Source of the DNA: Chthonomonadaceae bacterium
Lineage (GTDB): Bacteria; Armatimonadota; Fimbriimonadia; Fimbriimonadales; Fimbriimonadaceae
NCBI GenBank assembly: GCA_015709495.1
Contig: CP054189.1
Location: forward strand, 1,364,001-1,428,000
Length of the DNA: 64,000 bases
Direction: 5' to 3'
The translations under genes and the position numbers were made by a program. Shown in pieces: positions 2,819 through 58,646 of the stretch (its first letter is position 1; every line of letters begins with the position of its first letter). The notes under the pieces were generated by a model. That model was not told the DNA's origin, ran no database searches, and saw nothing but the letters and a program-made list of their open reading frames with translations.

Positions 2819-4600
2819 ATGGCGTTAAAGCGCGTCTCGATGGTCGACTTCTTGTTGGAGAAGGGGTACATCACCTCGGCCCAACTCGACGAAGCGAAGA
2901 AGGTTCAGCAGCAGACGAACGAACCGGACCTCGGAAAGGTCCTGGTTACTTTGGGCATGGTCGGCGAGCGCGCGGTGCTCGAAGGCAAAGCGGCCGAAAG
3001 CGGCTACCCGTTCGTCGACATCGACAACGTCCAGATCGAGTCGAACGCGATCAACGTCGTGCCCGAGCGCATCGTCAAACTTCACAGCGCCATCCCGGTT
3101 CGCAAGGAAGGCAATAACCTGTGGGTCGCGATGGCGAACATCTCGGACCTGCGAGCGCAGGACGACATCACGATGGCTTCGGGGTGCCGGGTGCATCCAG
3201 TGATGGCCGTTCCGGGCGCCATCGAGGACGCGATCAAGAAGTACTACTCCGGAACCGCCGGCAACGGCGACGCGGCGGCGGCGGAGACCGCCTTGCAGCA
3301 GGCCTCTCCGGCAGGGACGCCGAGCATCCATGGCGAGATTCGGGCGGCCATCGCGAGCGCCCAAGTCGCCAGAGGGCGCGAAGGCGAAGAAGAGGCGGCC
3401 GATGCGGACGCCGAGAAGATGGCCGAGCAAGCGCCGATCATCAAGCTCGCCAACGCCCTGATCCAACAAGCGATTTACGACAGAGCCAGCGACATCCACG
3501 TCGAGCCGCAGCATCGATCCGTGCGAGTCCGGTACCGCATCGACGGCGTCTTGATGGAGGCTATGATGGTTCCCAAGAGCCTGCAAGCGCCGCTCATCAG
3601 CCGCCTGAAAATCATGGCGGACATGAACATCGCCGAGCGCCGGATTCCCCAAGACGGCCGTATCGAGATTCGCCACCAGAACAAGGAGTACGACCTTCGC
3701 GTATCGAGCATCCCGACCCCGTTCGGCGAGAAGATCGTCATGCGTATTCTCGACAAGTCGAGCATCCTCATCGGACTTGGCAAGCTCGGCTTTACAGATG
3801 AGAACCAGGCGAAGATCGAAGAGCTCACCTCGCAGCCGAACGGCATGTTCCTCTCGACCGGTCCTACGGGTTCGGGAAAAACCACCACACAGTACTCAGT
3901 TTTGAACCGGCTCAACACGGTTGGCGTGAACGTCATTACGATTGAAGAGCCGATCGAGTACCAGCTCAACGGCATCGCCCAGGTCCAGGTGAACCGCAAA
4001 GCCGGCCTGACGTTCGCTACGGCACTGCGGTCGTTCCTTAGGCAAGACCCCGACATCATCATGGTCGGAGAAATGCGCGACCTGGAAACCGCCGAAATCG
4101 CCATCGAGGCGTCGCTGACGGGCCACCTTGTTCTTTCCACCCTGCACACGAACGACGCTCCTTCGGCCACGATTCGTATGGTCGATATGGGCGTCGAGCC
4201 GTACCTGATCGCAGCGACCGTCATCGGCGTTTTGGCCCAAAGGCTGGGCCGCCGGATCGACCAGAGCCACAAGGAGGCGTACGCGGTTCCGGCGATCGAC
4301 CTTCGCAGGTTCGGGTTCAACGTCACCGACCCCGAGGAAGAAGTCACCTTGTACCGCGGCGTTCCTCACGACGACAACCGGATGACCGGCTACCGGGGCC
4401 GTGTCGGTTTGCACGAGTTGCTGGTCGTGAACGATGAGGTCCGGGAACTCATCGTGCGCCGCGCTCCTTTGACCGACCTGAAAGAAGCCGGCAAAGCGAA
4501 CGGCATGAAGGAGTTGCGCGAAGACGGCCTCGTCAAGGTTCTAGCGGGCGTCACGGACCCTCAAGAAGTGATGCGCGTGGTCTTCACCGCTGGATTCTAG
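2819..4600 (+). CDS. pilB: Type IV pilus assembly ATPase PilB (GspE family)
   Basis: This cytoplasmic hexameric ATPase powers extension of type IV pili or pseudopili. Residues 1-160 form the GspE/PilB N-terminal domain (MVDFLLEKGYITSAQLDEA). The ATPase core carries Walker A GPTGSGKTT (about 350-358), Walker B IIMVGEMRD (about 413) and the His box STLHTND (about 440). The four cysteines of the usual PilB/GspE zinc site are all missing; the equivalent segment reads RRIDQSHKEAY...LYRGVPHDDNRMTGYRGR. Its 593 residues are normal for the family. It opens the pil locus, with pilT 51 bp downstream. AGGAG lies 12 bases before the ATG, a long spacing. Confidence 0.95.
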   Translation: MALKRVSMVDFLLEKGYITSAQLDEAKKVQQQTNEPDLGKVLVTLGMVGERAVLEGKAAESGYPFVDIDNVQIESNAINVVPERIVKLHSAIPVRKEGNNLWVAMANISDLRAQDDITMASGCRVHPVMAVPGAIEDAIKKYYSGTAGNGDAAAAETALQQASPAGTPSIHGEIRAAIASAQVARGREGEEEAADADAEKMAEQAPIIKLANALIQQAIYDRASDIHVEPQHRSVRVRYRIDGVLMEAMMVPKSLQAPLISRLKIMADMNIAERRIPQDGRIEIRHQNKEYDLRVSSIPTPFGEKIVMRILDKSSILIGLGKLGFTDENQAKIEELTSQPNGMFLSTGPTGSGKTTTQYSVLNRLNTVGVNVITIEEPIEYQLNGIAQVQVNRKAGLTFATALRSFLRQDPDIIMVGEMRDLETAEIAIEASLTGHLVLSTLHTNDAPSATIRMVDMGVEPYLIAATVIGVLAQRLGRRIDQSHKEAYAVPAIDLRRFGFNVTDPEEEVTLYRGVPHDDNRMTGYRGRVGLHELLVVNDEVRELIVRRAPLTDLKEAGKANGMKELREDGLVKVLAGVTDPQEVMRVVFTAGF

Positions 4601-4651
4601 AAAGCGTTGCAAAAAGAAGGAACGACCCCAGAAAGAGAATCGGACTGCAAG

Positions 4652-5845
4652 ATGAACGACAACACACCTATGTTTCAATTGACCGACGCGCAGGCGCCGG
4701 AACCGGTAGAGGCGGAGCAGAGCGGCTCGGGCCCGCTGTCCGTCGAGGACCTCCACGTCGACGATTTTCTCAACATCGTCGTCGATCGGAACGCCTCCGA
4801 CCTCCACATCAGCGCGAACTGCGAGCCGGTGATTCGCGAGGACGGAAAGCTCAAGAGGCTGAACTACCAGAGGTTCACGCCCCAGATCACCCAGCGGATG
4901 ATGTACGACATCCTCTCGGACGAGCACATCCACCGTTTTGAGACGACGCTCGAACTCGACTTCTCCTACGCCCTCCCTAAGCGCGCCCGGTTCCGCGTGA
5001 ACTGTTTTCGGGATCGAGGCTCGGTCGCCTCGGCCTTCCGCTTGATTCCGCAGAAGATCCCTACCGTCAAGGAGTTGAACCTTCCTCCGATCCTCGAAAA
5101 GTTGACCGAAAAGCCGCGCGGGCTGATCCTCGTCACGGGTCCCACCGGCCACGGAAAGTCGACGAGCCTTGCGGCGATGATCAACAAGATCAACGAGGAC
5201 CGCGCCGAGCACATCATCACGATCGAGGACCCGATCGAATACTTGCACGTGAACAAGCTGAGCGTGATCAATCAGCGCGAGTTGGGGCACGACACCAAGA
5301 GCTTCGCCAACGCCCTTCGGGCGGCCCTTCGCGAAGACCCGGACGTCATGCTCGTGGGTGAAATGCGCGACATGGAGACGATCCAGCTCGCGATCACGGC
5401 CGCTGAAACGGGCCACCTGGTGTTCGCGACCCTGCACACGAACACGGCCGCTGAATCGATCGACCGTATCATCGACGTGTTCCCCCCGGGGCAGCAGGAG
5501 CAGATTCGCATTCAGCTCGCCAACAATATTCAGGCAGTGGTTTCGCAACAGCTTCTTCCTAGGTCGGGCGCGCCGGGACGCGTCCCCGCGGTCGAGATCA
5601 TGATCGCGACTCCTGCGATTCGGAACCTCATTCGCGAGAACAAAACGCACCAGATTCCGTCCACCATTCAAACGAGCCACCAATACGGCATGATCTCGAT
5701 GGACCAGTGCCTTCGAGACCTTTATGGTAGAGGGTGGATCACGCTCGACCACGCGATGTCCCGCGCGGTCAACGTGGATGAACTGAAGAAGATGATTTCG
5801 ACACCGCAGACCGGAGGAGGAGGATCGCCCAGCCCTGGGCGGTAA
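4652..5845 (+). CDS. pilT: Twitching motility retraction ATPase PilT
   Basis: This cytoplasmic hexameric ATPase drives pilus retraction. It has the PilT N-terminal PAS-like region (LHVDDFLNIVVDRNASDLHIS), then the RecA-like core with Walker A GPTGHGKST (about 163-171), Walker B VMLVGEMRD (about 232) and the His box ATLHTNT (about 260). The Walker A has His where Ser is usual (GPTGSGKST). The frame is open back to a TTG at 4607, but ATG 4652 (MNDNTPMFQL) gives a normal 397-residue protein and is preferred. A Gly/Ser-rich tail ends the protein. The combination of pilB, pilT and pilC argues for true type IV pili rather than only type II secretion, which has no retraction ATPase. Confidence 0.94.
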   Translation: MNDNTPMFQLTDAQAPEPVEAEQSGSGPLSVEDLHVDDFLNIVVDRNASDLHISANCEPVIREDGKLKRLNYQRFTPQITQRMMYDILSDEHIHRFETTLELDFSYALPKRARFRVNCFRDRGSVASAFRLIPQKIPTVKELNLPPILEKLTEKPRGLILVTGPTGHGKSTSLAAMINKINEDRAEHIITIEDPIEYLHVNKLSVINQRELGHDTKSFANALRAALREDPDVMLVGEMRDMETIQLAITAAETGHLVFATLHTNTAAESIDRIIDVFPPGQQEQIRIQLANNIQAVVSQQLLPRSGAPGRVPAVEIMIATPAIRNLIRENKTHQIPSTIQTSHQYGMISMDQCLRDLYGRGWITLDHAMSRAVNVDELKKMISTPQTGGGGSPSPGR

Positions 5846-5875
5846 TTCTCGACCCCAGCACGTGAGGTAACCACC

Positions 5876-7102
5876 ATGCCCGTCTATACCTACACTTATC
5901 GAGATGCGAGCGGCGGAGTTCAAAAGGGAACCGCCGAAGCGGAAAGCGAAGAGGTCCTGAGGAAGCGTTTCGAAGAACAGGGATTCACCCTCACCGAAGT
6001 CACGATGATTCGGGCTCGGGGCACGAAGCCCAAGCGGTACGGAAAGGTCCGTCTCAACAACCTGTCGATCTTTTGTCGCCAGTTCTCGACGATGGTCGAC
6101 GCCGGCGTTTCGCTGGTCCGGTGCCTCGACGTGTTGTCGCAGCAGACCCAAGACCCCAAGCTGCGAAAGATCATCATGGACGTGGGCGAGCGAGTGGAGG
6201 GAGGCGAAAGCCTTTCTCGCGCGATGCAGCGCCACCCCCGAACCTTCTCCAACCTCTTCATCGGCCTGATCCGCGCCGGAGAGGTGGGTGGTGTTTTGGA
6301 AGAGTCGCTGCAACGGCTTTCGCACTTCTTGGAAAAGGACGTCGAACTCCGTCGCAAGGTCAAGTCGGCCCTGACGTATCCGGTCTTGGTGCTCGTCATG
6401 GCGACCGGCATCACGTTCTTTCTCGTGTATTGGTTCGTCCCTCAGTTCGCCAAGATCCTTGAGGACCTGGGGCTTTCCAAGGACAAGATTCCGGGCCCCA
6501 CTCAGTTCCTGATCGACCTGGCCCACAACCTCGAAAAGAACTGGTGGGTGTTCTTGCTGGTGATCGTCGGCATCATCGTCGCTTACAAGCTGTTCGTCAG
6601 TACGAGGTTCGGGCGCCGCATCGCCGACCGCGTGAAGCTCAAGATGCCCGTCTTCGGGAAGCTGCACCACAAGATTTGCCTCGCCCGGTTCAGCCGGACG
6701 CTTGGCACGCTGCTGACCTCGGGCGTTCCGATTCTGCAAGCTATGGAGACCACTTCGGGCGTCGTGGGCAACACGATCATGTCGGACGCCGTGATGGAAG
6801 CCCGGGCGCGAATCCGCGAAGGGGACCGAATTGGAGAGCCTCTGGAGACGAGCCGACTGTTCCCGCCGATGGTCGTTCACATGATCGGCGTCGGAGAGGA
6901 ATCGGGTTCGCTCGACTTCATGCTTCAGAAGATCGCCGACTTCTATGAATCGGAGATCGAGGCCACGCTCGCTTCGCTCACAGCCGCGCTCGAACCGATC
7001 ATGATCGTCATGATGGGCGTCATCGTCGGCTTCATCGTCATTTCGATGTTCCTTCCGTTCGCGTCGATCATTTCCGAGTTGACCGCGGGCGGCTCGTCGT
7101 AA
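5876..7102 (+). CDS. pilC: Type IV pilus inner-membrane platform protein PilC (GspF family)
   Basis: This polytopic inner-membrane protein links the PilB/PilT motors to the growing pilus. Two tandem T2SSF domains are visible: FCRQFSTMVDAGVSLVRCLD (about 65-85) and its counterpart CLARFSRTLGTLLTSGVPIL (about 268-287). Transmembrane stretches lie near 170-190, 222-243 and 375-400. Its 408 residues are normal. The ATG is preceded by GAGG at good spacing. It follows pilT by 30 bp and is surely co-transcribed. Confidence 0.95.
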   Translation: MPVYTYTYRDASGGVQKGTAEAESEEVLRKRFEEQGFTLTEVTMIRARGTKPKRYGKVRLNNLSIFCRQFSTMVDAGVSLVRCLDVLSQQTQDPKLRKIIMDVGERVEGGESLSRAMQRHPRTFSNLFIGLIRAGEVGGVLEESLQRLSHFLEKDVELRRKVKSALTYPVLVLVMATGITFFLVYWFVPQFAKILEDLGLSKDKIPGPTQFLIDLAHNLEKNWWVFLLVIVGIIVAYKLFVSTRFGRRIADRVKLKMPVFGKLHHKICLARFSRTLGTLLTSGVPILQAMETTSGVVGNTIMSDAVMEARARIREGDRIGEPLETSRLFPPMVVHMIGVGEESGSLDFMLQKIADFYESEIEATLASLTAALEPIMIVMMGVIVGFIVISMFLPFASIISELTAGGSS

Positions 7103-7204
7103 ACCGGGAATTGGGTAGGGGGCTCCGAGAGGAACCCTCTGCCTGATTCCTCGAAACAGGGCTTGCCTAGGGAACGGGCAAGGGGCAAGTAGGGAGGCGA
7201 AGGA

Positions 7205-8257
7205 GTGTTTCCTGAGTGGAGTTGGGTGCTGGGACTCGCGATCGGCGCGTCTTTCGGCAGCTTCCTCAACGTGGTCATCTATCGCCTGCCCCGACGCATC
7301 TCCCTCGCCAAACCCGCTCACAGCTTCTGCCCGAACTGCAAGACGGACCTCGGCGTTGCCGACCTCATTCCCCTTCTTAGTTGGCTCTTTTTGGGGGGGA
7401 AGTGCCGTCATTGCGGCGCAAAGATTCCGCCCCGGTACTTTCTCGTCGAACTCGTCAACGGCGGGCTGTACGCTTACATTTGGCACCTGTTCTTGGTGGC
7501 CGACTTCGATGTCGCTCGGGCGGCACTGGCGGCGGCCACCGCGTCGCTGCTCGTTGCGATGCTGTTCATCGACTGGGAGTTCTACATCATCCCGGACGAA
7601 CTCAACGCGCTGCTTTGGCTCGTGGGCGTCGCGTTCAATGCCTACCTCATCGCGGTGGGGCACGAGGCGGCGTTTCTTTGGGGAATACCTAGCAGCTTGG
7701 CGGGCTGGCTCGTGGGAACGGGAGTCATTTGGGGGATTAGCTTTCTGGGTCGGATTGCGTTTCAGAAGGACGCGATGGGACATGGCGACATCAAGATGGC
7801 CCGAGGGATCGGCGCGGTGCTGCTGCCGATCGGGGTGCTTCTGACTTGCGGCATCGCGGTGTTTCTGGGGGCCGTGTTGGGTGCGGTACAGGTGCTGGTG
7901 TGGAGGTTTTCGCCTGAGTCAGAACATCCAGAGGCTTCGTCCCGTCAAGAAACTGGAGAATCTACCGGCGAGGGATTGCAGTACGACGAGCCTGAATCGA
8001 TCGGCTCGTTGCTGCGGTGCGGGCTTGCGTACGCCGTATGCCTTGACATCGTGGGACTGTTCTTCCCCAAACTCTACATGAGGGTGTTTGGGGAGGACCC
8101 GTTCACGTCGGTGGAGGATGACGAGTTCGAGGTGGAAAGAACGATGATTCCGTTTGGTCCGTACCTCGCGGCGGGGGCAATCGCGGTACTGTTGTTCAAA
8201 CCCCAGGTAATGTCATGGATCGACGCCTATTCGCAATGGGCGTTCGGAGGGAGCTAG
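7205..8257 (+). CDS. pilD: Prepilin leader peptidase/N-methyltransferase
   Basis: This membrane aspartic protease cleaves prepilin leaders and methylates the new N-terminus. The zinc-binding tetracysteine motif of the methylase part is intact (C42/C45 and C67/C70). Catalytic aspartates are visible in FIDWEFYIIPDE (D123) and GHGDIK (D195); the usual motif is GxGDxK, so His takes the variable position. About eight membrane segments are present. A hydrophilic insert (about residues 235-265, rich in Glu/Ser) precedes the last membrane segments and makes the protein about 80-90 residues longer than typical. The start is GTG 7205, with GGGAGG seven bases upstream. Its substrates are probably the four prepilin-like proteins encoded next. 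Confidence 0.94.
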   Translation: MFPEWSWVLGLAIGASFGSFLNVVIYRLPRRISLAKPAHSFCPNCKTDLGVADLIPLLSWLFLGGKCRHCGAKIPPRYFLVELVNGGLYAYIWHLFLVADFDVARAALAAATASLLVAMLFIDWEFYIIPDELNALLWLVGVAFNAYLIAVGHEAAFLWGIPSSLAGWLVGTGVIWGISFLGRIAFQKDAMGHGDIKMARGIGAVLLPIGVLLTCGIAVFLGAVLGAVQVLVWRFSPESEHPEASSRQETGESTGEGLQYDEPESIGSLLRCGLAYAVCLDIVGLFFPKLYMRVFGEDPFTSVEDDEFEVERTMIPFGPYLAAGAIAVLLFKPQVMSWIDAYSQWAFGGS

Positions 8258-21003: not shown

Positions 21004-21005
21004 AC

Positions 21006-27770: not shown

Positions 27771-28940
27771 ATGGCCAAGAAGCTGAATAGCGTGGTCGGA
27801 ATCGACATCGGAAGTCGTTCCATCAAAGTCGCTGAAATACGGAGTCAAGGGCGCGACGTGGTCGTTACGGCGCTGGGGATCGTCGATACGCCGGAGGGCG
27901 CGGTCGATCATACGGGCATTTACAACAGCGACGCTGTTGCGAATGCGCTCAAGCAGGCCCTGTCGTCGAGCGGCGTAAGCGTGGGTCAAGCGGTTGCGAC
28001 GATCGCTGGGCAGGCCTCCGTGTTGGTCCGGACGCTCGAGGTTCCCAAAATGAACCCGAACGAACTCCGCGAGCACATGCAGTGGGAGATCAACCGGAAC
28101 ATTCCGTTTTCCGAGAGCACGGTCGTGAGCGATTACCGTGTGGTCGACGAGGGCGCTGAGGGCGCTCAGAATATGGACGTGGTGATGGCGATCAGCCCCC
28201 AGTCCGCGATCGAGACCCTCATGGCTTGTGTCAAGAAGGCCGGCAAGCAACTGTTCGCGATCGACGTCGAGCCGCTCGGCCTCGCAAGGTCGGTCTTCAC
28301 CAGTTACGGCGACGAATTCGACAACCAGACGGTTTGCCTGGTAGACATCGGGCACAAGACGACTTCGATCAACATTTATCGCAACGGCAAGCTGCTGATG
28401 CCGAGGCAGGTTCCTCTGGGCGGCGAACTCCTCACGAAGTCGATCGCCGATGGCCTAGGCGTGAGCGGCCCCGAAGCCGAGGAGATCAAACGCAATCAGG
28501 CCGACGCGTCGCAGGTCTCCGCCGGAGGGGCGGCGACCCAGCAGTTCACCGCCTACAATCCGTTTGCGGAAGCTGGCGAAGGCGGAGCGCCCGAAACGAG
28601 CGCGGAATCGGCAGCGCCGGTGCCCGCTGCGGATGCCAATCGAGCCAACGCATTCATCGTCGACGGTCTGTCGGAGCTTGCCGAAGAGGCGCGGCGTTCG
28701 ATCGAGTATTTCCGGAGCAAAGGCGGCGAAGTGGAGCGGATCGTGCTCTGTGGCGGCGGCGCGGGATTGCGCGGTCTGAACACGTACCTCAGCAACGCCT
28801 TGGGCTTGCCGTGTGACATTTTCGACCCGACTCGGCGTCTTCAGATTAACGCAAAGAAAGCATCTGAGGAGTTCGTTGCCGGACACAAACAGGAGTTCGC
28901 GGTGGCGGTCGGTAACGGCCTACACATCATGTTCGATTAG
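27771..28940 (+). CDS. pilM: Type IV pilus alignment protein PilM (actin-like)
   Basis: This cytoplasmic actin/FtsA-fold ATPase binds the PilN N-terminus and couples motor and alignment complexes. The phosphate-1 loop VVGIDIGSRSIKVAEI (about 8-23) and the phosphate-2 segment VCLVDIGHKTTSINIY (about 187-202) are clear. FRSKGGEVERIVLCGGGAGLRGLN is the adenosine-binding end. A low-complexity Ala/Glu/Pro insert lies at about 255-290. The 389 residues are slightly above normal. It is followed by pilN after nine bases. Confidence 0.94.
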   Translation: MAKKLNSVVGIDIGSRSIKVAEIRSQGRDVVVTALGIVDTPEGAVDHTGIYNSDAVANALKQALSSSGVSVGQAVATIAGQASVLVRTLEVPKMNPNELREHMQWEINRNIPFSESTVVSDYRVVDEGAEGAQNMDVVMAISPQSAIETLMACVKKAGKQLFAIDVEPLGLARSVFTSYGDEFDNQTVCLVDIGHKTTSINIYRNGKLLMPRQVPLGGELLTKSIADGLGVSGPEAEEIKRNQADASQVSAGGAATQQFTAYNPFAEAGEGGAPETSAESAAPVPAADANRANAFIVDGLSELAEEARRSIEYFRSKGGEVERIVLCGGGAGLRGLNTYLSNALGLPCDIFDPTRRLQINAKKASEEFVAGHKQEFAVAVGNGLHIMFD

Positions 28941-28949
28941 GAATGGCGG

Positions 28950-29810
28950 ATGAAGCTCAACCTACTACCGACCCACGTATCAAAGGAAGCAGGCGCGAAG
29001 ACGGCCTGGGTGTTCTCGCTCCTCATTGCGGCTGCATCGATCGGCGCTGCGGTGTTCCTGCAGGTGAGTTCTCGTCAGCAGCTTTCCGAATCCATCGAGG
29101 CCGCTCGGCAGAACGAGGGGACCGCGGCGCAGGCGCTGAGGCTCTCGCAAGAAGCGGACGCCATCATCGCCCAGGCTCGCGGCATTATCATCAATATCGA
29201 CCTTGCCGACGCCATGATGGCCCACAACAACACGTATCCGGACCTCTATGACGAAGTTCGACGGTACGTGCCCAGTTTCTTCCGCACGACCTCTCTCTCG
29301 GCGAGCCCCAGCGGCGCTGACACCTGCGTGGTGACGATGACAGGCGTCATTCGGACTTATCAGGACTACGCCAACTTGATGCTGGCATTGATGAGGATTC
29401 CCGGAGCTCAATCGGTGTCCCGGGACGGGTATCAGATCATCGATCCCGTGGTGCCTTCGCTGAATGAAACCGACCAGACTGGCCGCCCGATTCGGCCCGG
29501 AGAATCGAACATCCCCGACGATCCGACCGCTCGGCTCAACTACTTGATGTCGCAGGGCGGGACGACCGGATTTTCGGGCGTCGGCGGGTTTGGGAGCGAC
29601 AGCATCGCCGCCCGAGGAGCGATGCCCGATTGGTCTGAGATCACCGTGTCTGTGGTCTTACAGCGGAACCTTCAGACTCCCGATCCCCGAGCCACCATAG
29701 CCGGTGCGCAGGGCGGTGGGGGAGGTGGCACCGCGCCAGGCGGTGGAATTCCCGGTCCCACTCCCGCAGGCGGAGGCGGCGGTGGCGGCCCGAGCGTTTT
29801 GATGGAATAG
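28950..29810 (+). CDS. pilN: Type IV pilus alignment protein PilN
   Basis: The N-terminal MKLNLLP motif, which in PilN docks into PilM, is followed by one membrane helix (WVFSLLIAAASIGAAVFL) and a coiled-coil segment (SSRQQLSESIEAARQNEGT). A ferredoxin-like periplasmic domain follows (SADTCVVTMTGVIRTYQDYANLMLALMRIPG). The C-terminus is a Gly/Pro-rich tail of about 40 residues that is not usual in PilN. AGGA lies seven bases before the ATG. Confidence 0.85.
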   Translation: MKLNLLPTHVSKEAGAKTAWVFSLLIAAASIGAAVFLQVSSRQQLSESIEAARQNEGTAAQALRLSQEADAIIAQARGIIINIDLADAMMAHNNTYPDLYDEVRRYVPSFFRTTSLSASPSGADTCVVTMTGVIRTYQDYANLMLALMRIPGAQSVSRDGYQIIDPVVPSLNETDQTGRPIRPGESNIPDDPTARLNYLMSQGGTTGFSGVGGFGSDSIAARGAMPDWSEITVSVVLQRNLQTPDPRATIAGAQGGGGGGTAPGGGIPGPTPAGGGGGGGPSVLME

Positions 29811-29826
29811 CAGGAAGGTCAACTCT

Positions 29827-30597
29827 ATGTCGAAACTCAGCCCCGTTACCATCCTGTCGTTTGGAATCGCCATTGCGATCGTGGCGCTCTCGTATGGGTA
29901 CTTCTATGAGTGGTCGCCCAACATGCTGGCCAAGTCCTATTGGGATGCTCACAAGGAAAAGGTGGACGCCGAAGCGAACAAGCTCAGCCGTGCCCAGAAG
30001 CGAAAGGAAGACGCGATCCAGATGGTGCAAGACAAGGCGGATCAATGGAAGGCCGTGGTGGCGCGCCATACACCGCCCCCTTCGGTCTCCCAAGGCGGGA
30101 TCAACCTTGCGGTCAACGCATGGCAGCTCACCGTAGACACGTATGCCTTTCGGAACAGCGTGCAAAGGCAACTCAACGCTCAGATCAAGCGGGGCGGTGT
30201 GACCGTCGTCGCCGGTCCTACGGTTCCAGATCCGGGTCCGCAGGCGAGTTCGCTTGTCGCCAACTACTTCAATATGCCGCCGTTCCAATACCCGGTGGTG
30301 ATTTACGATTTCGGGTCGGTAACGGTGCGAGGGAACTACTCGCAGATCATGAACCACGTTCGGTCATGGTCGTCAATGCCGAACTTCCTGGCGGTGGCCG
30401 ATGGGCTTCAGCTCACGGGAACGTCGCCGAACCTGACGGCAACTTACAGTCTTACGGTGGTCGGATACATCCGGGCGAAGGAGACGTTCCCGCCCGTTCC
30501 GGAAGGCGCGAGCGCCGGTGGCGGTCCGGGCGCGCCCGGTGGAGTGGGAGGGCCGCCTTCGGGAGGCTCGCGACAAGGCCCGATGCAAGGCTTTTGA
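29827..30597 (+). CDS. pilO: Type IV pilus alignment protein, PilO-like
   Basis: A short cytoplasmic start (MSKLSP) precedes one membrane helix (VTILSFGIAIAIVALSYGY), then a coiled coil rich in Lys/Glu (about 40-80), then a globular periplasmic domain in which SVTVRGNYSQIMNHVRSWSS (about 160-180) resembles the PilO/GspM ferredoxin fold. The C-terminus is Gly/Pro-rich. The position between pilN and a PilP-like lipoprotein supports the assignment, as direct similarity is weak. Confidence 0.78.
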   Translation: MSKLSPVTILSFGIAIAIVALSYGYFYEWSPNMLAKSYWDAHKEKVDAEANKLSRAQKRKEDAIQMVQDKADQWKAVVARHTPPPSVSQGGINLAVNAWQLTVDTYAFRNSVQRQLNAQIKRGGVTVVAGPTVPDPGPQASSLVANYFNMPPFQYPVVIYDFGSVTVRGNYSQIMNHVRSWSSMPNFLAVADGLQLTGTSPNLTATYSLTVVGYIRAKETFPPVPEGASAGGGPGAPGGVGGPPSGGSRQGPMQGF

Positions 30598-30612
30598 CGA
30601 GACAGGCCTAGA

Positions 30613-31371
30613 ATGAAGAGAGTGGGTCGAATGTTGGAACTGAATCGAAGCAGAATCGAATTGAGCGTGCTCGCGCCGGTGGTCCTGATGGGGCTGCTTG
30701 CGGGTTGTACGCCGCCGCCGGATCAAGACGCGCTGGCCAACCCAGCGCCCGCACCGAGTGGAGACGCGCCGGCCACCTCGACGGACTTCTCTCCCGACGT
30801 CGACGCCGGGGTGCCAATCGATGCCGCTCCCATGGACCCGGGCAAGCTGTCGCAACTGATCGCAAGCCGTGGGTTCAGCGCTCGGACCGATCCCTTCGCC
30901 TTGTTCCCTGCGGAAAATCAGTTTGAGAGCTTGCAGCGAGCGGAGCGCCTGCTGCAGGAGACGGGCGGATGGGCGCTGGAGGTCTCACCGCCTGTGGAGA
31001 CTTTCGAAGAAGAGGCCTATGAGGCTCAGCCCTATCGTCGGCTGTCGGGCGTGATGGTGGGTGACACCGTGCAGGCCATCATCGTCATGGAGACTGGAAA
31101 GTTTTATACCGTCAGACCGGGAATGCAGATTCCCAACAGCGAGTGGACGGTCGTTTCCATCGATCAGGAGAAGGCGATTCTGCGAAGGCCCGGCAATCGC
31201 AAGCCGAACCAGATCGTCGTCAGACTCGAATCTCCCCCTGCTGGCATGGCGACAGGTGGGCAGCAACCTCAAGGTGGCGGTGTCGCCGCGCCGGGCACGG
31301 AAGGACCCGGCTCGATTGGGGCGCCCAACGCGCCGGGAGGCTCGGGCGGAGCTTCTGGGGCCATAGGATAA
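30613..31371 (+). CDS. PilP-like lipoprotein of the pilus alignment complex
   Basis: The N-terminus ends in a lipobox LLAGC (about residues 30-34), so the protein should be lipid-anchored. A disordered Pro/Ala/Asp linker is followed by a beta domain (YRRLSGVMVGDTVQAIIVME and GKFYTVRPGMQIPNSEWTVV) with the pattern of PilP/GspC homology regions, which bind the secretin. The tail is Gly/Pro-rich. The position after pilN/pilO and before the secretin supports this role. An in-frame GTG at 30622 follows TAGAAT by seven bases and could be an alternative, leaderless start. Confidence 0.75.
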   Translation: MKRVGRMLELNRSRIELSVLAPVVLMGLLAGCTPPPDQDALANPAPAPSGDAPATSTDFSPDVDAGVPIDAAPMDPGKLSQLIASRGFSARTDPFALFPAENQFESLQRAERLLQETGGWALEVSPPVETFEEEAYEAQPYRRLSGVMVGDTVQAIIVMETGKFYTVRPGMQIPNSEWTVVSIDQEKAILRRPGNRKPNQIVVRLESPPAGMATGGQQPQGGGVAAPGTEGPGSIGAPNAPGGSGGASGAIG

Positions 31372-31463
31372 GGGCCGCGAACCTAGACTTGAAAAAATAC
31401 GTTCCATAATGAACAGAGGTAACGAAACACGACTTGAAACTTCAGAATGTTCGGAGGCAAAAC

Positions 31464-32228
31464 ATGAGCAAACTCATCCGATTCTTAGCTAGCGCAGGGC
31501 TTGCCGTAGGCATCCTCGCCCTCGCGCCCGTCAACGTAATGGCACAGGGCGATCCGGGCCAGACGATCATCGAATCGTTCGAACTTGAGCAGGCCGACGC
31601 AAGGGAAGCCATCAAGATGCTGTTCCGGCACGTGAACGTGTCCTATAGCGTCGCACCGGAAGTCCAAGGAACCGTTACCTTGAGTCTCAAGCGAATGCCG
31701 TTCGAGACGGTTCTTCGCAACATTCTGAACCAGATTGATGCCACGTACCGCATCGAGGGCGGCGTCTACCAAATCATCAAGCGAGAGCCCCCGGTAACGT
31801 CCGGCGGCGGCCAGGAGACCTTGCCGGAGACTCCCGCAGCGTCTCTGCCCGTTCGGCGACTCAAGATTCGGTCCGCGGACCCCCTGTTCATCATGCTGAT
31901 GCTCCAGGGCAGCCAGTCGACGAGCACCTGGCCGGAAATGAGCACCGTGTTTAACACGGGTGGCGGCCGTTTCGGCGGCGGCGGCGGCTTCGGCGGCGGT
32001 AGCGGCGGCTTCGGTAGCGGCGGTTTCGGCGGCGGTGGCTTTGGCGGCGGTGGCTTCGGCGGTGGCGGCTTCGGCGGCGGTAGCGGCGGCTTCGGCGGCT
32101 TCGGCGGCTTCGGCGGTGGCGGCTTCGGCGGAAGTGGCGGATTTGGCGGCGGCGGCTTCGGCGGCGGCTTCGGCGGCGGCGGCGGTTTTGGAGGCGGCGG
32201 TGGTCGCGGTGGTGGCGGTCGCTTCTAA
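31464..32228 (+). CDS. Short STN-domain protein with glycine-rich tail (secretin-like, no pore domain)
   Basis: A Sec signal peptide (cleavage after VMA|QGD) is followed by a secretin/TonB short N-terminal (STN) domain: SFELEQADAREAIKMLF and the beta repeats that follow, about residues 32-105. A linker follows and then a C-terminal tail of about 85 residues built almost only of GGFGGG-type repeats. No N1/N2 or secretin pore domain is present, although the STN closely resembles that of pilQ, the next gene. The frame is open from TTG 31434, but ATG 31464 has GGAGG six bases upstream. It may assist secretin assembly or bind peptidoglycan; the function is inferred. Confidence 0.82.
   Translation: MSKLIRFLASAGLAVGILALAPVNVMAQGDPGQTIIESFELEQADAREAIKMLFRHVNVSYSVAPEVQGTVTLSLKRMPFETVLRNILNQIDATYRIEGGVYQIIKREPPVTSGGGQETLPETPAASLPVRRLKIRSADPLFIMLMLQGSQSTSTWPEMSTVFNTGGGRFGGGGGFGGGSGGFGSGGFGGGGFGGGGFGGGGFGGGSGGFGGFGGFGGGGFGGSGGFGGGGFGGGFGGGGGFGGGGGRGGGGRF
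31960..32222 (+). repeat. Glycine/phenylalanine codon microsatellite (GGC-TTC repeats)
   Basis: Imperfect tandem repeats of ggcggcttcggcggt-type units encode the Gly-Phe-rich tail of the STN protein. Such a tract is prone to length change by slippage. Confidence 0.85.
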
Positions 32229-32279
32229 GGCTGCAAGCTGGGGCATCGCCAAAGGTTGTCTATGGAGGGTATGGAGAAA

Positions 32280-33935
32280 ATGCGTATTCGCTTAGGTCGG
32301 ATTGGGCTGATCGGCGTCGCCGGAATGGCGCTCGCCGTCAGCTCCTGGGCACAGTTGTTGTCGGAACTTCGAGTCGACCTCGAACTGAAGGACGCCGATA
32401 TGCTCGCTGCGACTCGGATGCTGACTCAGCAAACGGGCTTGCAGTTCGTGATCATGCCGAGCACAGAGCCGATGCGAAAGCTCAATCTGAAGCTTCGCCA
32501 GGTGTCTGTGGACGATGCGATCGCCTACATTTGCCAAAACGCAGGCGCGAGCTATCGCAAGGATCACAACGGCGTGTATATCATCAGTTTTGGCCCGGAG
32601 CCAGAGACGACCAAGACGGATACGGCCGCGCCCCCCAAGGTGGACGTGCCCAAGATCGTCAAGAAGGTCAAGCTGCTGAAGGCGAACGCCAAGGACGTCT
32701 ACAGCCAGCTTTACGGAAACGTGCCGGACATGAACGACGGGTTCCGGGAGCTTGCGCGGTTCAACAACCTCGTGAACCCTCACGTCTTGAAGGACCTGAG
32801 CAAGCAGCCGATCCTCAATGGCGGGTCGGGCAACTACCAGCCCGTGAGCTCGCAGGCGCTGCCCAACAACTTTTCGGAGTCCGGCAACGACATCCTCTTG
32901 CCAGGTGAAGGCTCCGGCCAGATCGGTGGGATCGGCGGCGGTCCCGGCGGCGGTCGTGGCGGGCTTGGCCAAGGTGGCGGCGGCCTCGGACAGGGCGGCG
33001 GTGGCTTCGGACAGGGCGGCGGCGGCTTCGGTCAAGGTGGCGGTGGTTTTGGCCAAGGCGGCGGCAGCGTCAACTTGCAGGGTGGCGAAGGTCTCGTCGG
33101 CGATTCGATCGACTTCATCAGCTACGACCCGAACGACAATAGCATCATCGTGCGAGGCTCAGAAGAGGACATCGCTCGGCTTCAAGCCTACATCAGTATG
33201 TTCGACGTTGCGCCCAAGCAAGTCATCATCAAGGTCGAGTTCATCACGACGAGTTCGAGCTTGAGCAAGTCGCTCGGCTTCGACTGGTTGTATGAACGGG
33301 GAACGGTGTTCACCGGCGTCCGGCCAGGATCGTTCGCTCGAGCGGGCGACCCCGTGTTCCTCAACTACGCCACAGGCGCGGTGACGACTCGAATGAGGGC
33401 GCTCCTGCAGGAAGGTTACGGAAAGGTCGTTCAGGCGCCGGTCATCCGAACGCTGAACAACCAGCCCGCCTCCGTTCTGCAAAACGTCTCGACCACCCTC
33501 TTCATCAACCAGGTGGTCAGCGTAGGCAACGGCCAAGTCATCATCGCTCCGCAAGCCTTCCAGTTGACGATCACCACCGGACTTACGGTGGCGCCTCGTA
33601 TCAACGAAGACGGCTATGTGACGGTGTTCTTGAACGTGCCCGTGCAGGACTTTGGCCAGCTAAGGCGAAGCCCGGACGGTTCCGAAATCCCCGACGTGCT
33701 TTCTCAGATCATCAGCGTGGTCGCTCGCGTCAAGAGCGGGGAAACCATCGCGCTGGGCGGCATGGTCCGCAAGCAGGACGCCGGTAGCCAGGCAAGGTTC
33801 CCGATCCTCGGGGATCTGCCGATCATCGGCCAGTTCTTCCGGTCGAGCAACCGAGATCGGAACAACACCGAGTTGCTGATCTTTGTTACGCCGACGATCG
33901 TGACGGACGACGCCTCGGGCGGACTCGGGCCGTAG
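32280..33935 (+). CDS. pilQ: Type IV pilus secretin PilQ (GspD family)
   Basis: This is the outer-membrane pore for the pilus. A signal peptide (about 1-24, ending SSWA|Q) is followed by an STN domain (LRVDLELKDADMLAATRML), then an N1-type domain split by a Gly/Gln-rich insert (about 215-275, repeats of GGGFGQ) and closed by SIIVRGSEEDIARLQAYIS. The secretin pore domain follows, with the hallmark FPILGDLPIIGQFFRSSN and ELLIFVTPTIV near the end. An ATG at 32271 and a TTG at 32256 are alternatives; ATG 32280 is preferred because GGAGGG lies ten bases upstream and it begins a normal signal peptide. It closes the pil locus and is followed by a strong hairpin. Confidence 0.94.
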   Translation: MRIRLGRIGLIGVAGMALAVSSWAQLLSELRVDLELKDADMLAATRMLTQQTGLQFVIMPSTEPMRKLNLKLRQVSVDDAIAYICQNAGASYRKDHNGVYIISFGPEPETTKTDTAAPPKVDVPKIVKKVKLLKANAKDVYSQLYGNVPDMNDGFRELARFNNLVNPHVLKDLSKQPILNGGSGNYQPVSSQALPNNFSESGNDILLPGEGSGQIGGIGGGPGGGRGGLGQGGGGLGQGGGGFGQGGGGFGQGGGGFGQGGGSVNLQGGEGLVGDSIDFISYDPNDNSIIVRGSEEDIARLQAYISMFDVAPKQVIIKVEFITTSSSLSKSLGFDWLYERGTVFTGVRPGSFARAGDPVFLNYATGAVTTRMRALLQEGYGKVVQAPVIRTLNNQPASVLQNVSTTLFINQVVSVGNGQVIIAPQAFQLTITTGLTVAPRINEDGYVTVFLNVPVQDFGQLRRSPDGSEIPDVLSQIISVVARVKSGETIALGGMVRKQDAGSQARFPILGDLPIIGQFFRSSNRDRNNTELLIFVTPTIVTDDASGGLGP

Positions 33936-46338: not shown

Positions 46339-46606
46339 GTGGTCTTCCCGTTCGTTGGGAGTGTGGAAGTATGAAACGGTCGAAGTAATAAGGAGGTTGC
46401 AGCTTGCCCAGCTTTCTTGGGTTGCACCGCCCGGGCAAGCTCCTGCTCTTGCCGCTCCAAGATCGAGCCCTTAAGTTCTCATCTACGAATGGAACATACC
46501 TTTGCACCCAGTAAAATTACCAGATTCGCCCCCCCGCCGGGAAAAATCACGGAACTGGCGGATTCGTCCTGTACAATGCTTCTGACGGTAGCGTGAGGGA
46601 ATCTAA

Positions 46607-47197
46607 GTGAACGATTCTGTTCGCGAACGGGAACTCCAGGCATCACTTCGGAAGAAGGGACCATTAGTTCAGTGGATTGAGCGTTTGGTATTGGTCGCCG
46701 CCTTCTCCGCCGGAATGTTGGGAGTAATCTGGGCAATCGCGGTTAGTGCAGAGTCGCTCCAGGCGCGTGCGAACCGCAGCCTGATACCCCAATGGGATGA
46801 GTCAAGGGACCCTGCGTTGGGTTTCAGCATCGCACATTCCATAGGTCCCATCGAGAACTTCGCGGCAGAGGAAAGCACGGACGACACGATTCTACTATCC
46901 TACCTTGGGGGGTGTGGTGGCTGCTCGCTCCAGCATCCGGCGTTCGAAGAAGATCGAATGCAGCGTTTTCGTGGTGTCGTTTGCGTTATTCAATACGAAG
47001 GGCAACACATCCCAAGCATGATCTCGGCACTCGATACCAAAGTGCGCGTCGTTGTCGATAAGGACGGCGCGATTGGTCGGATGCTAAACTCCACCGACCA
47101 TACGCGGTTATTTGCCGTCGATACCGCTTGGAAGTTGGTCGAGAAACAACGCATGTCGGAGGCTGGATTCGAGTTTGTCCGGAGGATCATTCGATGA
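46607..47197 (+). CDS. Membrane-anchored thioredoxin-like protein with CGGC motif
   Basis: An N-terminal charged segment, one membrane helix (RLVLVAAFSAGMLGVIWAIAV, about 27-47), and a thioredoxin-like domain outside the membrane in which ILLSYLGGCGGCS (C103-G-G-C106) takes the place of the redox CxxC. Later segments (VRVVVDKDGAIGRML, TRLFAVDTAWKLVEKQ) resemble the beta-strands of TlpA/peroxiredoxin-like folds. GTG start with GAGGG upstream; TACAAT lies 29 bases before it. The gene overlaps the next prepilin-like gene by four bases. Local base composition looks less GC-rich than the flanks. A disulfide-handling role is inferred. Confidence 0.7.
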   Translation: MNDSVRERELQASLRKKGPLVQWIERLVLVAAFSAGMLGVIWAIAVSAESLQARANRSLIPQWDESRDPALGFSIAHSIGPIENFAAEESTDDTILLSYLGGCGGCSLQHPAFEEDRMQRFRGVVCVIQYEGQHIPSMISALDTKVRVVVDKDGAIGRMLNSTDHTRLFAVDTAWKLVEKQRMSEAGFEFVRRIIR

Positions 47198-47748
47198 ACC
47201 GGCACGCATTCTCTCTGGTCGAAGTGCTCGTGTGCCTTGCGATCGCTGTCGTACTGGTGGCCATCTTGGTTCCCGTACTGAGCTCCGCGAAGAAGGCCTC
47301 GCACGAATCGGTGTGTGCTTCGAACCTCAAGCAATTGCATCTGACGATCGCCCTGTACCAAGAGCAGTATGGCGGTTCAAGCGGAGTGGGCAACCTTTAC
47401 GAAATGGGATTGCCGACGCTACCGCTTCAAAAGAGCCTGAAGTACACCGCCGGGCTGGGGCGCTGCGACGGGCAGGGCAGTCCTGTTCGATCGCCTACAG
47501 GTTTTGCCTACTTCTACGTCCCGTCCCCGCCGAACGCAATGTCAGGCTTGGTGAAGTGGGCCGACTATGTTGCGGCCGAAGGCGAGAACGCCGTGCTGAT
47601 CATGGACCTGAACCACAACGAGATACGGGCAACATCGTTGATCTTGGCGGAGGGACTGACGAAGAAGGGCATGGCTGTCTTACTCAGCGGCCAATTAGTG
47701 AGGAAGAACAAGAAGGGAAATCCTTGGAAGTTTGACTGGTGGAAGTGA
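47194..47748 (+). CDS. Prepilin-like protein of the disulfide cluster
   Basis: MNRHA5|F6-S-L-V-E10 followed by VLVCLAIAVVLVAILVPVL is a prepilin leader and helix, with Ala rather than Gly at -1 and Glu at +5. After the helix SSAKKASHESVCASNLKQLHLTIALYQ matches the type II pseudopilin/DUF1559-like pattern. The globular part has two cysteines. ATG 47194 overlaps the previous stop (ATGA); an earlier in-frame ATG at 47128 lies inside the previous gene and is rejected. It should be processed by PilD and may be assembled by the pil machinery. Confidence 0.8.
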   Translation: MNRHAFSLVEVLVCLAIAVVLVAILVPVLSSAKKASHESVCASNLKQLHLTIALYQEQYGGSSGVGNLYEMGLPTLPLQKSLKYTAGLGRCDGQGSPVRSPTGFAYFYVPSPPNAMSGLVKWADYVAAEGENAVLIMDLNHNEIRATSLILAEGLTKKGMAVLLSGQLVRKNKKGNPWKFDWWK

Positions 47749-47776
47749 ATCTAAGGACCCTAGGTAGGAGGAAATC

Positions 47777-48061
47777 ATGAACCAGAGCGTCAAGTGGATC
47801 GCGTGCTTGGTCATCGGACTATGCACAACTGCTGCAAACGTTTACTCGTACAACTGCATGGGAATACCCCCTGATTGTACGCCAGGCGGGTACTTCAATC
47901 CGTACTTCTTTTGCGAAGGTATATCCAATCCTCAGAAGTGCTGCCAGAAAGTGGCCTACCTCGTGGATTGTGAAGACAGCGAGGAGTGGAGCGTAGAAGT
48001 TGATGCCATGGAATATGAAGGACGCATTTGCGCTGGAGACGGATTCTGTCACGTTGAGTAG
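47777..48061 (+). CDS. Small exported cysteine-rich protein (eight mature cysteines)
   Basis: A 94-residue protein. The first 24 residues (MNQSVKWIACLVIGLCTTAA then NVYS) form a signal peptide. The mature part of about 70 residues contains eight cysteines, including a CC pair (55-56), an even number that suits four disulfides, and is otherwise acidic and aromatic-rich (PYFF, EDSEEW). AGGAGG lies just upstream of the ATG. The gene follows the thioredoxin-like and prepilin-like genes. It resembles small disulfide-stapled peptides, but no family is recognised. Confidence 0.72.
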   Translation: MNQSVKWIACLVIGLCTTAANVYSYNCMGIPPDCTPGGYFNPYFFCEGISNPQKCCQKVAYLVDCEDSEEWSVEVDAMEYEGRICAGDGFCHVE

Positions 48062-48076
48062 GATTCTGGCTGGTGG

Positions 48077-48733
48077 ATGAGGACGATGACAAGCAAGTCC
48101 TTGAGAAAGGCCTGGATCATAGTTCTTGGCGCGGGTGCGGTTCTTGGAGTCGTATACATCTCCTACAACCTCCTCAAGCCGCGAACCCTGGCCGACGACG
48201 CCGCCGATTTCTATTATGCCGCGCTGCGGGGCGATGCTGGGGCACTGCTCCCGCTGGTTTCCAGCCGGGAACGAGAGGTCGTCGGATGGAGCGAGCCGAG
48301 GCTGCGGGTGGTGCTGCAAAAGCTGGTGCAACCCCGTCTTCGGCGCCTTGATTTGGTTGGTGGCTCCGCCCGCAGACGGGTTAATCACCCGGTACACCCC
48401 ATCCAAGGCGCCTGCGACGTTCAGGTACGGACGCCTGACGGTCGGGAGACCACGTGGACCACTCTCGCTGAGTTAGAAGACGACGGAAAAGGACATTGCA
48501 GGGTAACGAGCCTCCTAATGAACGTGTGGCAACTCGATTATTTCGCCCGACACCCTGATGCCGGAGTAGACACCAGCGCCTTCAAGCGCGCGATCGTCGA
48601 AGGGTACAGCCAGGACCAGGAGGTCTTGCGGTCCGTCGGATTCCATACCCACGTTCCTCAACTGGAGTCGGAGGAGTGCGAGGCATGGGAGACAATGGTC
48701 ACTAGGTACAAGGCGAAGCTCGCCGGTCGATAG
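48077..48733 (+). CDS. Membrane-anchored protein of unknown function in the disulfide cluster
   Basis: One N-terminal membrane helix (AWIIVLGAGAVLGVVYISY, about 12-30), then an exported domain of about 185 residues opening with DDAADFYYAALRGDAGALLPLVS, a pattern like NTF2/SnoaL-type or DUF4878-type domains in which a secreted alpha+beta cone senses or binds. Three cysteines occur in the mature part. Start ATG 48077 or ATG 48086. It follows the Cys-rich protein by 15 bases and probably ends the operon. Confidence 0.65.
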   Translation: MRTMTSKSLRKAWIIVLGAGAVLGVVYISYNLLKPRTLADDAADFYYAALRGDAGALLPLVSSREREVVGWSEPRLRVVLQKLVQPRLRRLDLVGGSARRRVNHPVHPIQGACDVQVRTPDGRETTWTTLAELEDDGKGHCRVTSLLMNVWQLDYFARHPDAGVDTSAFKRAIVEGYSQDQEVLRSVGFHTHVPQLESEECEAWETMVTRYKAKLAGR

Positions 48734-56796: not shown

Positions 56797-57682
56797 TCAT
56801 CGCGCCTCCTTTGTTGGGCGAGATTCGAATTGGTCGGGGCTCATGTACTCAAGGCTTGAGTGCATGCGCTGTTGGTTGTAGATTGCATCGATGAAATGCT
56901 CCAGCGATGCTTGGGCTTCGAGGAAGGACGCATAGCGGTTGCGGTCGACTTCTTCGAGCTTCACGGTCCGAAAGAAGCTTTCCATGTGGGCATTGTCGCG
57001 CGGTTTTCCGGGAGCGGAGAAGCTGGTTTTGCCGCCTGCGTCGCGGATGAGCCTCATGTATCCGGAGGCGGTGTAGGTCGAGCCTTGGTCGGAGTGGTGA
57101 ATCCAGCCGAGGTTCGGTTTGCGGGTTTGCAGAGCCTTCAAGAGGCAATCGCGCACCAGGGCTTCGTCGTTTCGGCGCGAGAGGTGCCAGGCCACCGCTT
57201 TGCGCGAATACAGGTCCATGAGGGCGGCCAGGTAGAGCGGCCCCGAGTCGGTGCGCACCCGCGTGGTGTCGGCGACCCAGATCTGGTTGGGGCCGAGGCG
57301 CTGGGCCCTTGAGCAGGTTGCCTGCCCGGCGATCCCGAGCGCCCGGCCGGGTCACCCCGCGGCTGCGCGGCCTTCGCGCCATCAGCCCGTGCTCGCGCAT
57401 GAGCTTGCGAACTGCATACTCGCTGACCGCAACGCCCTCGAGCTGAAGCGCGCGCCGAACCCGGCGGTAGCCGTAACCCAGGAACAAGACCACCAGCCTC
57501 TCGATCGCCAACAGCAACTCGGGACGCGATTTCTGCCTCTGCGGAGCGTACACCAGAGAGCGAGATATGCCCACCAATTGGGACATGCGGTGAACCGAAA
57601 GGGACGGAAACTCCGGGCGAAGAGCGCGAATCATGGCTGCCTTTTCTCCCGGAGTTCCTCCCCTTTTTAGTGCGGCCTTCAA
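56797..57682 (-). pseudogene. IS3-family transposase OrfB, frameshifted
   Basis: The N-terminal half (VLKAALKRGG, SLSVHRMSQLVGISRSLVYA, GYGYRRVRRALQ) is followed by the integrase core with the full DDE triad in another frame: WVADTTRV, WIHHSDQGSTY and HMESFF. The frame changes near 57301-57315 (between NLLK and AQRLGPNQIW), as if one base were lost. Without a sequencing error the transposase is inactive. The C-terminal end is intact (YNQQRMHSSLEYMSPDQF). Confidence 0.85.
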
Positions 57683-57939
57683 AACTCGATCTCTAAAGCC
57701 TGACGACCCACGAGCGCTTCCAGCTCCTTCGTACGGTCCAGCACCATCCCCGAACCCGAACGCCCGGAATTCGGAAACGCATCCGAACCCAAGACCTTGA
57801 ACTGGTCCACCCAACGATCCAGCATCCCCGGAGACAAACCATGCTCCCGGCACACCTGAGCCTTTGACCGCAAGCCAGAAACGATCTCCTGGCATATGCC
57901 TAACTTGAACTCACGACTGAAACTACGGCGAGACACCAT
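57679..57939 (-). CDS. IS3-family transposase OrfA
   Basis: A helix-turn-helix protein of about 86 residues: SFSREFKLGICQEIVSGLRS and QVCREHGLSPGMLDRWVDQF form the Tra8/HTH motif, followed by a leucine-zipper-like end (ELEALVGRQALEIEF). It binds the IS ends. The stop overlaps orfB in the -1 frame (TTTTGA), the usual arrangement for programmed frameshifting in this family. The start is ATG 57939; an upstream in-frame ATG lies in the terminal inverted repeat. Confidence 0.9.
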   Translation of the reverse strand: MVSRRSFSREFKLGICQEIVSGLRSKAQVCREHGLSPGMLDRWVDQFKVLGSDAFPNSGRSGSGMVLDRTKELEALVGRQALEIEF

Positions 57940-58646
57940 CCTATTTTCTCCTGACAGAACAAGTAGGTGTCCACAAATTTCGCCGCAGGGCACCCCTCAC
58001 CCCCTGGCCCCCTCTCCCCCGGAGGGGCGAGGGGGAGGTTCCTTCATTGTCCCGGTCGGCTCTGCGAGTCAGACCGGGCCACCCGGCGCGCGGAAAGAAC
58101 CCCTCACCCCCTGGCCCCCTCTCCCCCGGAGGGGCGAGGGGGGATTTCCTTCATTCTCCCGGTCTGCTCTGCGAGGCAGACCGGGCCACCCGGCGCGCGG
58201 AAAGAACCCCTCACCCCCTGGCCCCCTCTCCCCCGGAGGGGCGAGGGGGGATTTCCTTCATTGTCCCGGTCGGCTCTGCGAGTCAGACCGGGGCACCCGG
58301 CACTCGGAAAGAGCCCCTCACCCCTGGCCCCTCTCCCCGGAGGGGCGAGGGGATTTCCTTCATTGTCCCGGTCGGCTCTGCGAGTCAGACCGGGGCACCC
58401 GGCACCCGGAATCCCTCACCCCCTGGCCCCCTCTCCCCCGGAGGGGCGAGGGGGAGGTTCCTTCATTGTCCCGGTCGGCACTTCGAGTCAGACCGGGGCA
58501 CCCGCGGTTCGTCTTCCCGGAGCGTTCTGTGCACGATCGAAGCGAGATGCCTCCAGCGCGCTTCTTGGCGGAGACCCACACGCATACTTTTGGTATGATT
58601 CTGGGGACTCGGCAGTAATGCCTTATGGAGAACAACGTAGAGTTCG

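Follow-up and report, generated by a model that had tools for sequence, protein, structure and literature searches.

The locus described here lies in a window of 64 kb, which is the whole stretch of DNA analyzed and part of a 2.9-Mb genome represented by a single contig. Four ORFs follow one another on its forward strand with an overlap or short gaps between them, as a preliminary description of the sequence had reported, and their products are referred to below as T, P, C, and M (Table 1). The T and P genes overlap by 4 bp (ATGA), C and M are separated by 15 bp, and C begins behind a good Shine-Dalgarno site (TAGGAGG). An idea that C is strongly expressed was dropped, since across 67 cassettes of this kind C does not exceed P; scans for promoters and terminators gave matches at chance level. 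The lower GC content that had been noted at the locus is real, with values of 0.50–0.61 over most of 46.4–48.2 kb (per-kb values 0.55 and 0.57), compared with some 0.62 in the surrounding DNA. Elsewhere in the window, a GC-rich unit of 107 bp is repeated in tandem (57992–58504; 4.9 copies, 91% matches) and yields long spurious ORFs, and an ORF on the reverse strand (56849–57895) appears by eye to be IS3-type transposase-like in its first half and out of frame in its second, as if frameshifted.

Table 1. Features of the 64-kb window
Feature	Position	Strand	Details
T: TlpA-like thiol-disulfide oxidoreductase, membrane-anchored	46607..47197	+	GTG start, 196 aa
P: prepilin, dedicated subfamily	47194..47748	+	184 aa, type III signal peptide
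C: small exported protein	47777..48061	+	94 aa, signal peptide, eight mature Cys
M: membrane-anchored protein	48077..48733	+	218 aa, N-terminal transmembrane helix, predicted NTF2-like domain, C-terminal helices
Type IV pilus assembly ATPase, second T2SSE-family ATPase (PilT-like), T2SSF platform protein, prepilin peptidase	2819..8257	+	
PilM, putative PilN/PilO/PilP, secretin genes	27771..33935	+	Pfam PilM_2, STN, Secretin
Divergence island, probable recombination tract holding the cassette	46340..48600	.	G000 versus G062

The first gene encodes T, whose N terminus includes a membrane segment and whose residues 103–106 read CGGC. The match of T to Pfam Redoxin (E 1.4e-4, 22.1 bits) falls under the gathering cut-off of 26.6, and a profile of the T family (A8) compared with PDB chains reaches ResA, StoA, CcmG, and DsbE with E values down to 5.5e-6. 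The membrane anchor, the CxxC, and the thioredoxin-like profile match are common to T and the TlpA-like oxidoreductases (ResA, StoA, CcmG/DsbE), from which T differs in its sub-cut-off Redoxin score, its CxSCS-type active site, and its occurrence here always in the cassette context. The CGGC by which the protein was initially characterized is present in the window but is not the motif of the family, where CxxC is the invariant element, kept in nearly all members and usually set within [G/S/P]-x-C-x-[S/T/G]-C-[S/A/T]. TlpA-like proteins are usually reductants, ResA, CcmG, and StoA mostly so, and T may therefore break disulfides rather than make them.

The second product, P, matches Pfam N_methyl above its cut-off (E 6.6e-6, 25.9 bits versus 21.2) and carries a Glu at residue 10 that is nearly invariant in the family, a hydrophobic helix, and a characteristic YR-D--GDG-YG---MGLP region. 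A loose regular expression recognizes the prepilin signature in the products of 98 of 102 cassette P genes; the P-like proteins of loci L183 and L267 possess the globular region of P and no recognizable prepilin cleavage signature. When three genomes were searched with the P profile, they gave 36, about 105, and 36 prepilin matches. In G007 (5.2 Mb, one contig), whose own P had been left out of the profile, a single protein among the roughly 105 matched over its full length (141.8 bits), namely the cassette P, while the others scored at most 92 bits and mostly aligned only with the first 60–100 residues. The same division into full-length and partial matches is seen in G000 and G031, members of both of which were in the profile. 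As judged from these sequence comparisons, the cassette P is a separate, dedicated prepilin subfamily: it shares the N-terminal methylation motif and hydrophobic helix with the type IV prepilins and PulG-like pseudopilins of Armatimonadota, whereas its globular part sets it apart from them as a subfamily found with the cassette. The prepilin repertoire of G007 is in itself very large, on a scale similar to the 79 pseudopilin genes given for Fimbriimonas ginsengisoli, a cultured relative, in a passage of its genome paper (PMC4072686).

The third product, C, has a mature part that spans about residues 25–94 and contains the eight cysteines counted in the preliminary description (27, 34, 46, 55, 56, 65, 85, and 91), Cys 10 and 16 lying within the signal peptide. 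Among 44 members of the family, six cysteine columns are kept in 43–44, one in 39, and a CC pair in 25; 8 or 10 mature cysteines are common and single ORFs hold up to 17. This conserved cysteine scaffold, together with the signal peptide, leads us to predict disulfides. The mature protein is acidic, with a net charge of about −10 in the window and a family median of −3 (range −10 to +1). Searches of C against Pfam and NCBIfam gave no match, and its profile found none among PDB sequences at E up to 1. An AlphaFold2 model computed from 44 sequences is all-beta, with pLDDT of about 90–97 in the mature part, and on this basis C is predicted to adopt an all-beta, disulfide-rich fold. The structure prediction that had been proposed for this 94-residue protein thus yielded a clear model, for which Foldseek and VIA searches returned no convincing structural relative, a result that is not proof of a new fold; those searches found no known adhesin fold either, and C has no anchor or sorting signal. 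Superposition on laterosporulin aligns 47 of 49 residues with Z 3.0–3.1 and rmsd 3.0, values tied with those of unrelated entries. Like laterosporulin and the defensin-like class IId bacteriocins, C is small, beta-rich, and disulfide-stapled according to the model, the structural overlap being weak and not above background; unlike them it is acidic rather than cationic, has a signal peptide, is larger, and contains more cysteines.

The fourth product, M, has no match to a Pfam family, the NTF2-like families included. Its AlphaFold2 model has a pLDDT of 93.6, and residues 34–158 align with several NTF2-like entries at Foldseek probabilities of 0.99–1.00, with E at best 3.3e-3. The best VIA Z is a modest 6.2 (to 3k7c), and the NTF2-like domain of PBP2a is among the best fold matches. 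As the Z values are modest, the predicted fold of M is called NTF2-like with reserve. The likeness to NTF2-like/SnoaL proteins, including MecA_N of PBP2a, lies in this predicted fold, and MecA_N also follows a membrane anchor; M differs from these proteins in having no sequence family match, extra C-terminal helices, and no attached enzyme.

T-P-C-M is a conserved four-gene cassette across Armatimonadota. Searches with single proteins recovered a complete set only in the nearest genome, G062, which was the sole match of C; elsewhere, weak matches to T and M adjoined one another, at loci that repeatedly display the same gene order with very different sequences. An alignment of 15 M proteins (A1), used as a profile, matched 60 of the 113 genomes in the order, spread over 31 of 47 genera; the largest number of matches in one genome was nine. 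Across the phylum, the profile matched 80 of 291 genomes. The nine in G031 reflect several divergent copies within one genome. About 120 M regions were retrieved and scanned with profiles made separately for T, P, and M. For 115 M genes the locus reaches 2 kb or more upstream; P was found upstream of 100 of these, T of 74, P and C together of 77, and all of T, P, and C of 66. The 4-bp overlap of T with P is the commonest arrangement across cassettes and is what translational coupling would lead one to expect. As a control, M genes were checked for an adjoining small, cysteine-rich ORF with a hydrophobic N terminus: 75 of 133 have one directly before them on the same strand and three have one on the other strand, compared with four of 598 background ORFs that have one beside them.

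The reverse search leads to the same neighborhood. The C profile (A5), searched independently, matched in 44 of 113 genomes of the order, mostly at known M loci. Of its matches away from the known M loci, 12 were retrieved, and in eight of these (L256, L257, L258, L260, L261, L263, L265, and L267) a P-profile gene lies directly upstream of C, several also having T or a weak M match. One of them, L256, holds a P-C-M set in G063, a genome of the same genus in which the cassette is absent from the site studied here. At L262 (4290–6519, forward strand), two C-like ORFs separated by about 2 kb flank a weak P-like ORF, and M gave no match; these are perhaps the same parts ordered differently.

There are variants of this common arrangement. 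About one in three M loci yielded no C, P and M adjoin without C between them in L118, L123, and L125, and several P-M pairs have no space for an intervening gene, so that C is either not obligatory beside every P-M pair or located elsewhere. T is found 3′ of M in L134. M occurs in tandem, with four copies in L132 and two each in L117 and L187, and as an apparent orphan, away from any cassette or without P or T, in L094, L098, L112, L127, and others. The L132 array (3353–6970, reverse strand) consists of P, C, and then the four M genes, an expansion local to M alone. Neither a fifth recurring gene family nor a conserved flanking gene was found in the cassette loci, the flanks differing among genomes; since no other family recurs beside the cassettes, the unit is four genes.

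Outside this set of genomes, a search of genome contigs with the prepilin alignment A6 returned six loci, those with informative titles all from Armatimonadota, and a genome-contig search with P0004 returned nothing. Plasmids searched with C and phages searched with M gave no match, and PHROGs and PADLOC gave none of meaning. The preliminary description had proposed one undescribed system, and had named as grounds for giving up the idea an order that does not recur or a small protein that proves to be of a known, unrelated family. Neither occurred: the order recurs in dozens of Armatimonadota genomes, and C and M have no Pfam or NCBIfam family.

Pilus machinery does occur in the same window, as had been proposed, comprising ATPases, a platform protein, a prepilin peptidase, PilM, and a secretin, 13–44 kb from the cassette. 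The genes of the first cluster were called from Pfam T2SSE, MshEN, T2SSF, and Peptidase_A24, and in the second PilN, PilO, and PilP were assigned by position alone. The cassette prepilin could use this type IV pilus machinery; no pilus assembly genes recur beside other cassettes. The secretin is apparently split into two ORFs (31434–33935), the first encoding a short protein that combines an STN domain with a long tail rich in Gly and Phe, and the second the secretin proper with a Gly-rich insert. Between prepilins and PilM, the pilus locus also encodes two secreted proteins of very large size, 1545 and 2193 aa (16366–27587).

Comparison of the near-identical genomes G000 and G062 provides clues into the recent history of the cassette. 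Flanking DNA is 92.5–100% identical per 200 bp, whereas identity within the cassette falls to 58–84%, with sharp borders, and pS is 0.54–0.82 in T, P, C, and M compared with 0.04–0.12 in the neighboring genes. The last 68 codons of M encode identical protein and have low pS, which places one border of the island inside M. The simplest reading of these sequences is that the cassette was probably replaced by a diverged allele via recombination. Along with the low GC and the lack of a conserved flanking gene, this sharp island agrees with the earlier suggestion of a transferred cassette. Against the near relative, pN in the cassette ORFs (0.07–0.26) is far under pS (0.54–0.82), so that they are under purifying selection. 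Protein identity between the two alleles is 93% for mature C, 85% for P, 80% for M, and 56% for T; C is the most constrained, which argues against a fast toxin arms race here. Distances were also compared across 60 full cassettes. The best correlation, between M and P (rho 0.37), was reached by none of 500 permutations; P-T and M-T gave 0.20, and C-M and C-T about 0.14. The correlated M-P, P-T, and M-T distances indicate that these parts travel together. For C and P rho was 0.005, with noisy C alignments and 16 of the 60 loci sharing nearest neighbors.

The reading we favor, to which we give somewhat less than an even chance, is that P uses the type IV pilus machinery to export or display C, while T handles the disulfides and M acts in the envelope. 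C would leave the cytoplasm through its Sec-type signal peptide and fold in the envelope, where T, held in the inner membrane by its anchor and with the CxxC facing outward, would make, shuffle, or break the disulfides of C. The role of P would be that of a dedicated minor pilin. The host's general type IV pilus machinery, whose genes lie elsewhere, would process and assemble P, and P would bind C and carry it out of the cell or display it at the filament tip. On the periplasmic side, M, as an inner-membrane-anchored NTF2-like protein, might retain C or P or pass them on. In this scheme we infer every physical interaction, the redox direction, export itself, and the role of M. Its support comes from the recurring T-P-C-M order, the frequent overlap of T and P, the dedicated P, the placement of a TlpA-like CxxC protein beside a cysteine-rich one, the correlated M-P, P-T, and M-T distances, and the presence of pilus machinery. 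Counting against it are the L183 and L267 P-like proteins, which without a prepilin signature would not suit a filament subunit, the missing C at about a third of M loci, the reductant role usual for TlpA-like proteins, and the nil correlation of C and P distances.

The closest precedent comes from passenger export by type IV pili. TcpF is exported by the toxin-coregulated pilus, and its N terminus is bound by the minor pilin TcpB (PMC9565799). In both TcpB-TcpF of Vibrio cholerae and CofB-CofJ of ETEC, a soluble protein exported by Sec is encoded together with a minor pilin, which is its proposed carrier (PMC9565799). The cassette likewise places a pilin with the prepilin signature next to a signal-peptide protein without it, and a functional likeness to passenger export of the TcpF type is plausible. 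There are differences as well. The TcpB-TcpF and CofB-CofJ pairs each belong to the operon of a single dedicated pilus, whereas the cassette contains none of the assembly genes and would depend on a general machine; C has no sequence match to solved proteins, and thus none to solved passengers of the TcpF or CofJ kind; T and M have no counterpart in those systems; and the cassettes occur in several copies per genome.

Other readings of the same genes must be weighed against pilus-mediated export or display. An inter-bacterial weapon, in which C is a disulfide-rich toxin or bacteriocin, M its immunity protein, T a folding factor, and P the route of release, would account for the tandem and orphan M genes, as immunity genes often occur in this way, for the exchange of the cassette between close strains, and for the several divergent copies per genome (nine M in G031). 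The alignment of the C model with 47 of 49 laterosporulin residues points in the same direction but stands at the level of unrelated entries, and PADLOC gave no match of note. Mature C is, moreover, acidic, unlike cationic pore-forming peptides, and at a pS of 0.82 it remains 93% identical, with divergence instead in T and the N-terminal half of M, the reverse of what an arms race would leave. We regard a weapon as unlikely, and assign a similarly low probability to C being a surface adhesin or attachment protein, a permanent component of the tip or coat of a P-built pilus that is not released and whose variants set adhesion specificity. The pili of F. ginsengisoli, with 79 pseudopilin genes, are thought to serve attachment, according to a passage of its genome paper (PMC4072686); the many divergent C sequences on one cysteine scaffold and the replacement of the cassette by recombination, typical of surface antigens, would also suit an adhesin. 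Against this, C lacks an anchor and a sorting signal, the searches recovered no known adhesin fold for it, and by sequence alone an adhesin is hardly separable from export and display.

Still less probable, in our estimation, is a redox or cofactor module, with T as its reductant, C as a metal- or cofactor-binding or cross-linked protein resembling the small subunits of quinoprotein amine dehydrogenases, and P and M placing C. The nearest solved relatives of T are mostly reductants (ResA, CcmG, StoA) and C is very rich in cysteine, with up to 17 per ORF, but the cassette has no recurring neighbor of the enzyme-subunit, haem, or radical-SAM kind, and the fold of mature C is predicted confidently without a ligand. 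Finally, the four genes might be unrelated and adjoin one another by chance or for purely historical reasons, a notion that draws on the variable flanks and on the loci without T or C. It is contradicted by the recurrence and we reject it as exceedingly improbable: C-like ORFs lie beside 75 of 133 M genes versus four of 598 background genes, each gene had its own independently built profile, matches to C obtained independently lead back to P, T, or M, and the distances are correlated.

T and P are proteins of known kinds; C, M, and the four-gene combination are new. Open-access papers yielded no description of such a cassette, nor did they yield a joint report of a dedicated pilin with a multiply disulfide-bonded secreted protein that has a thiol oxidoreductase of its own, and the passages searched in the F. 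ginsengisoli genome paper, which records 79 pseudopilin genes, make no mention of such cassettes (PMC4072686). C and M constitute two families that are in no family library tested and are spread through a little-studied phylum. The cassette may represent a new route of exporting or displaying small disulfide-bonded proteins. A broader possibility, which we consider doubtful at present, is a modular pilus cargo system in which interchangeable cassettes are served by one general type IV pilus machine and many cargoes are exported, each cassette supplying its own adaptor pilin, a disulfide-stapled cargo, a cargo-specific thiol oxidoreductase, and an NTF2-like envelope adaptor. If true, such a system would help explain the roughly 100 prepilin genes in some of these genomes. 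Cassettes that were adaptor-plus-cargo units for a shared pilus would offer a testable reason for part of these large prepilin repertoires, and would constitute a natural library in which one disulfide scaffold carries highly varied sequence.
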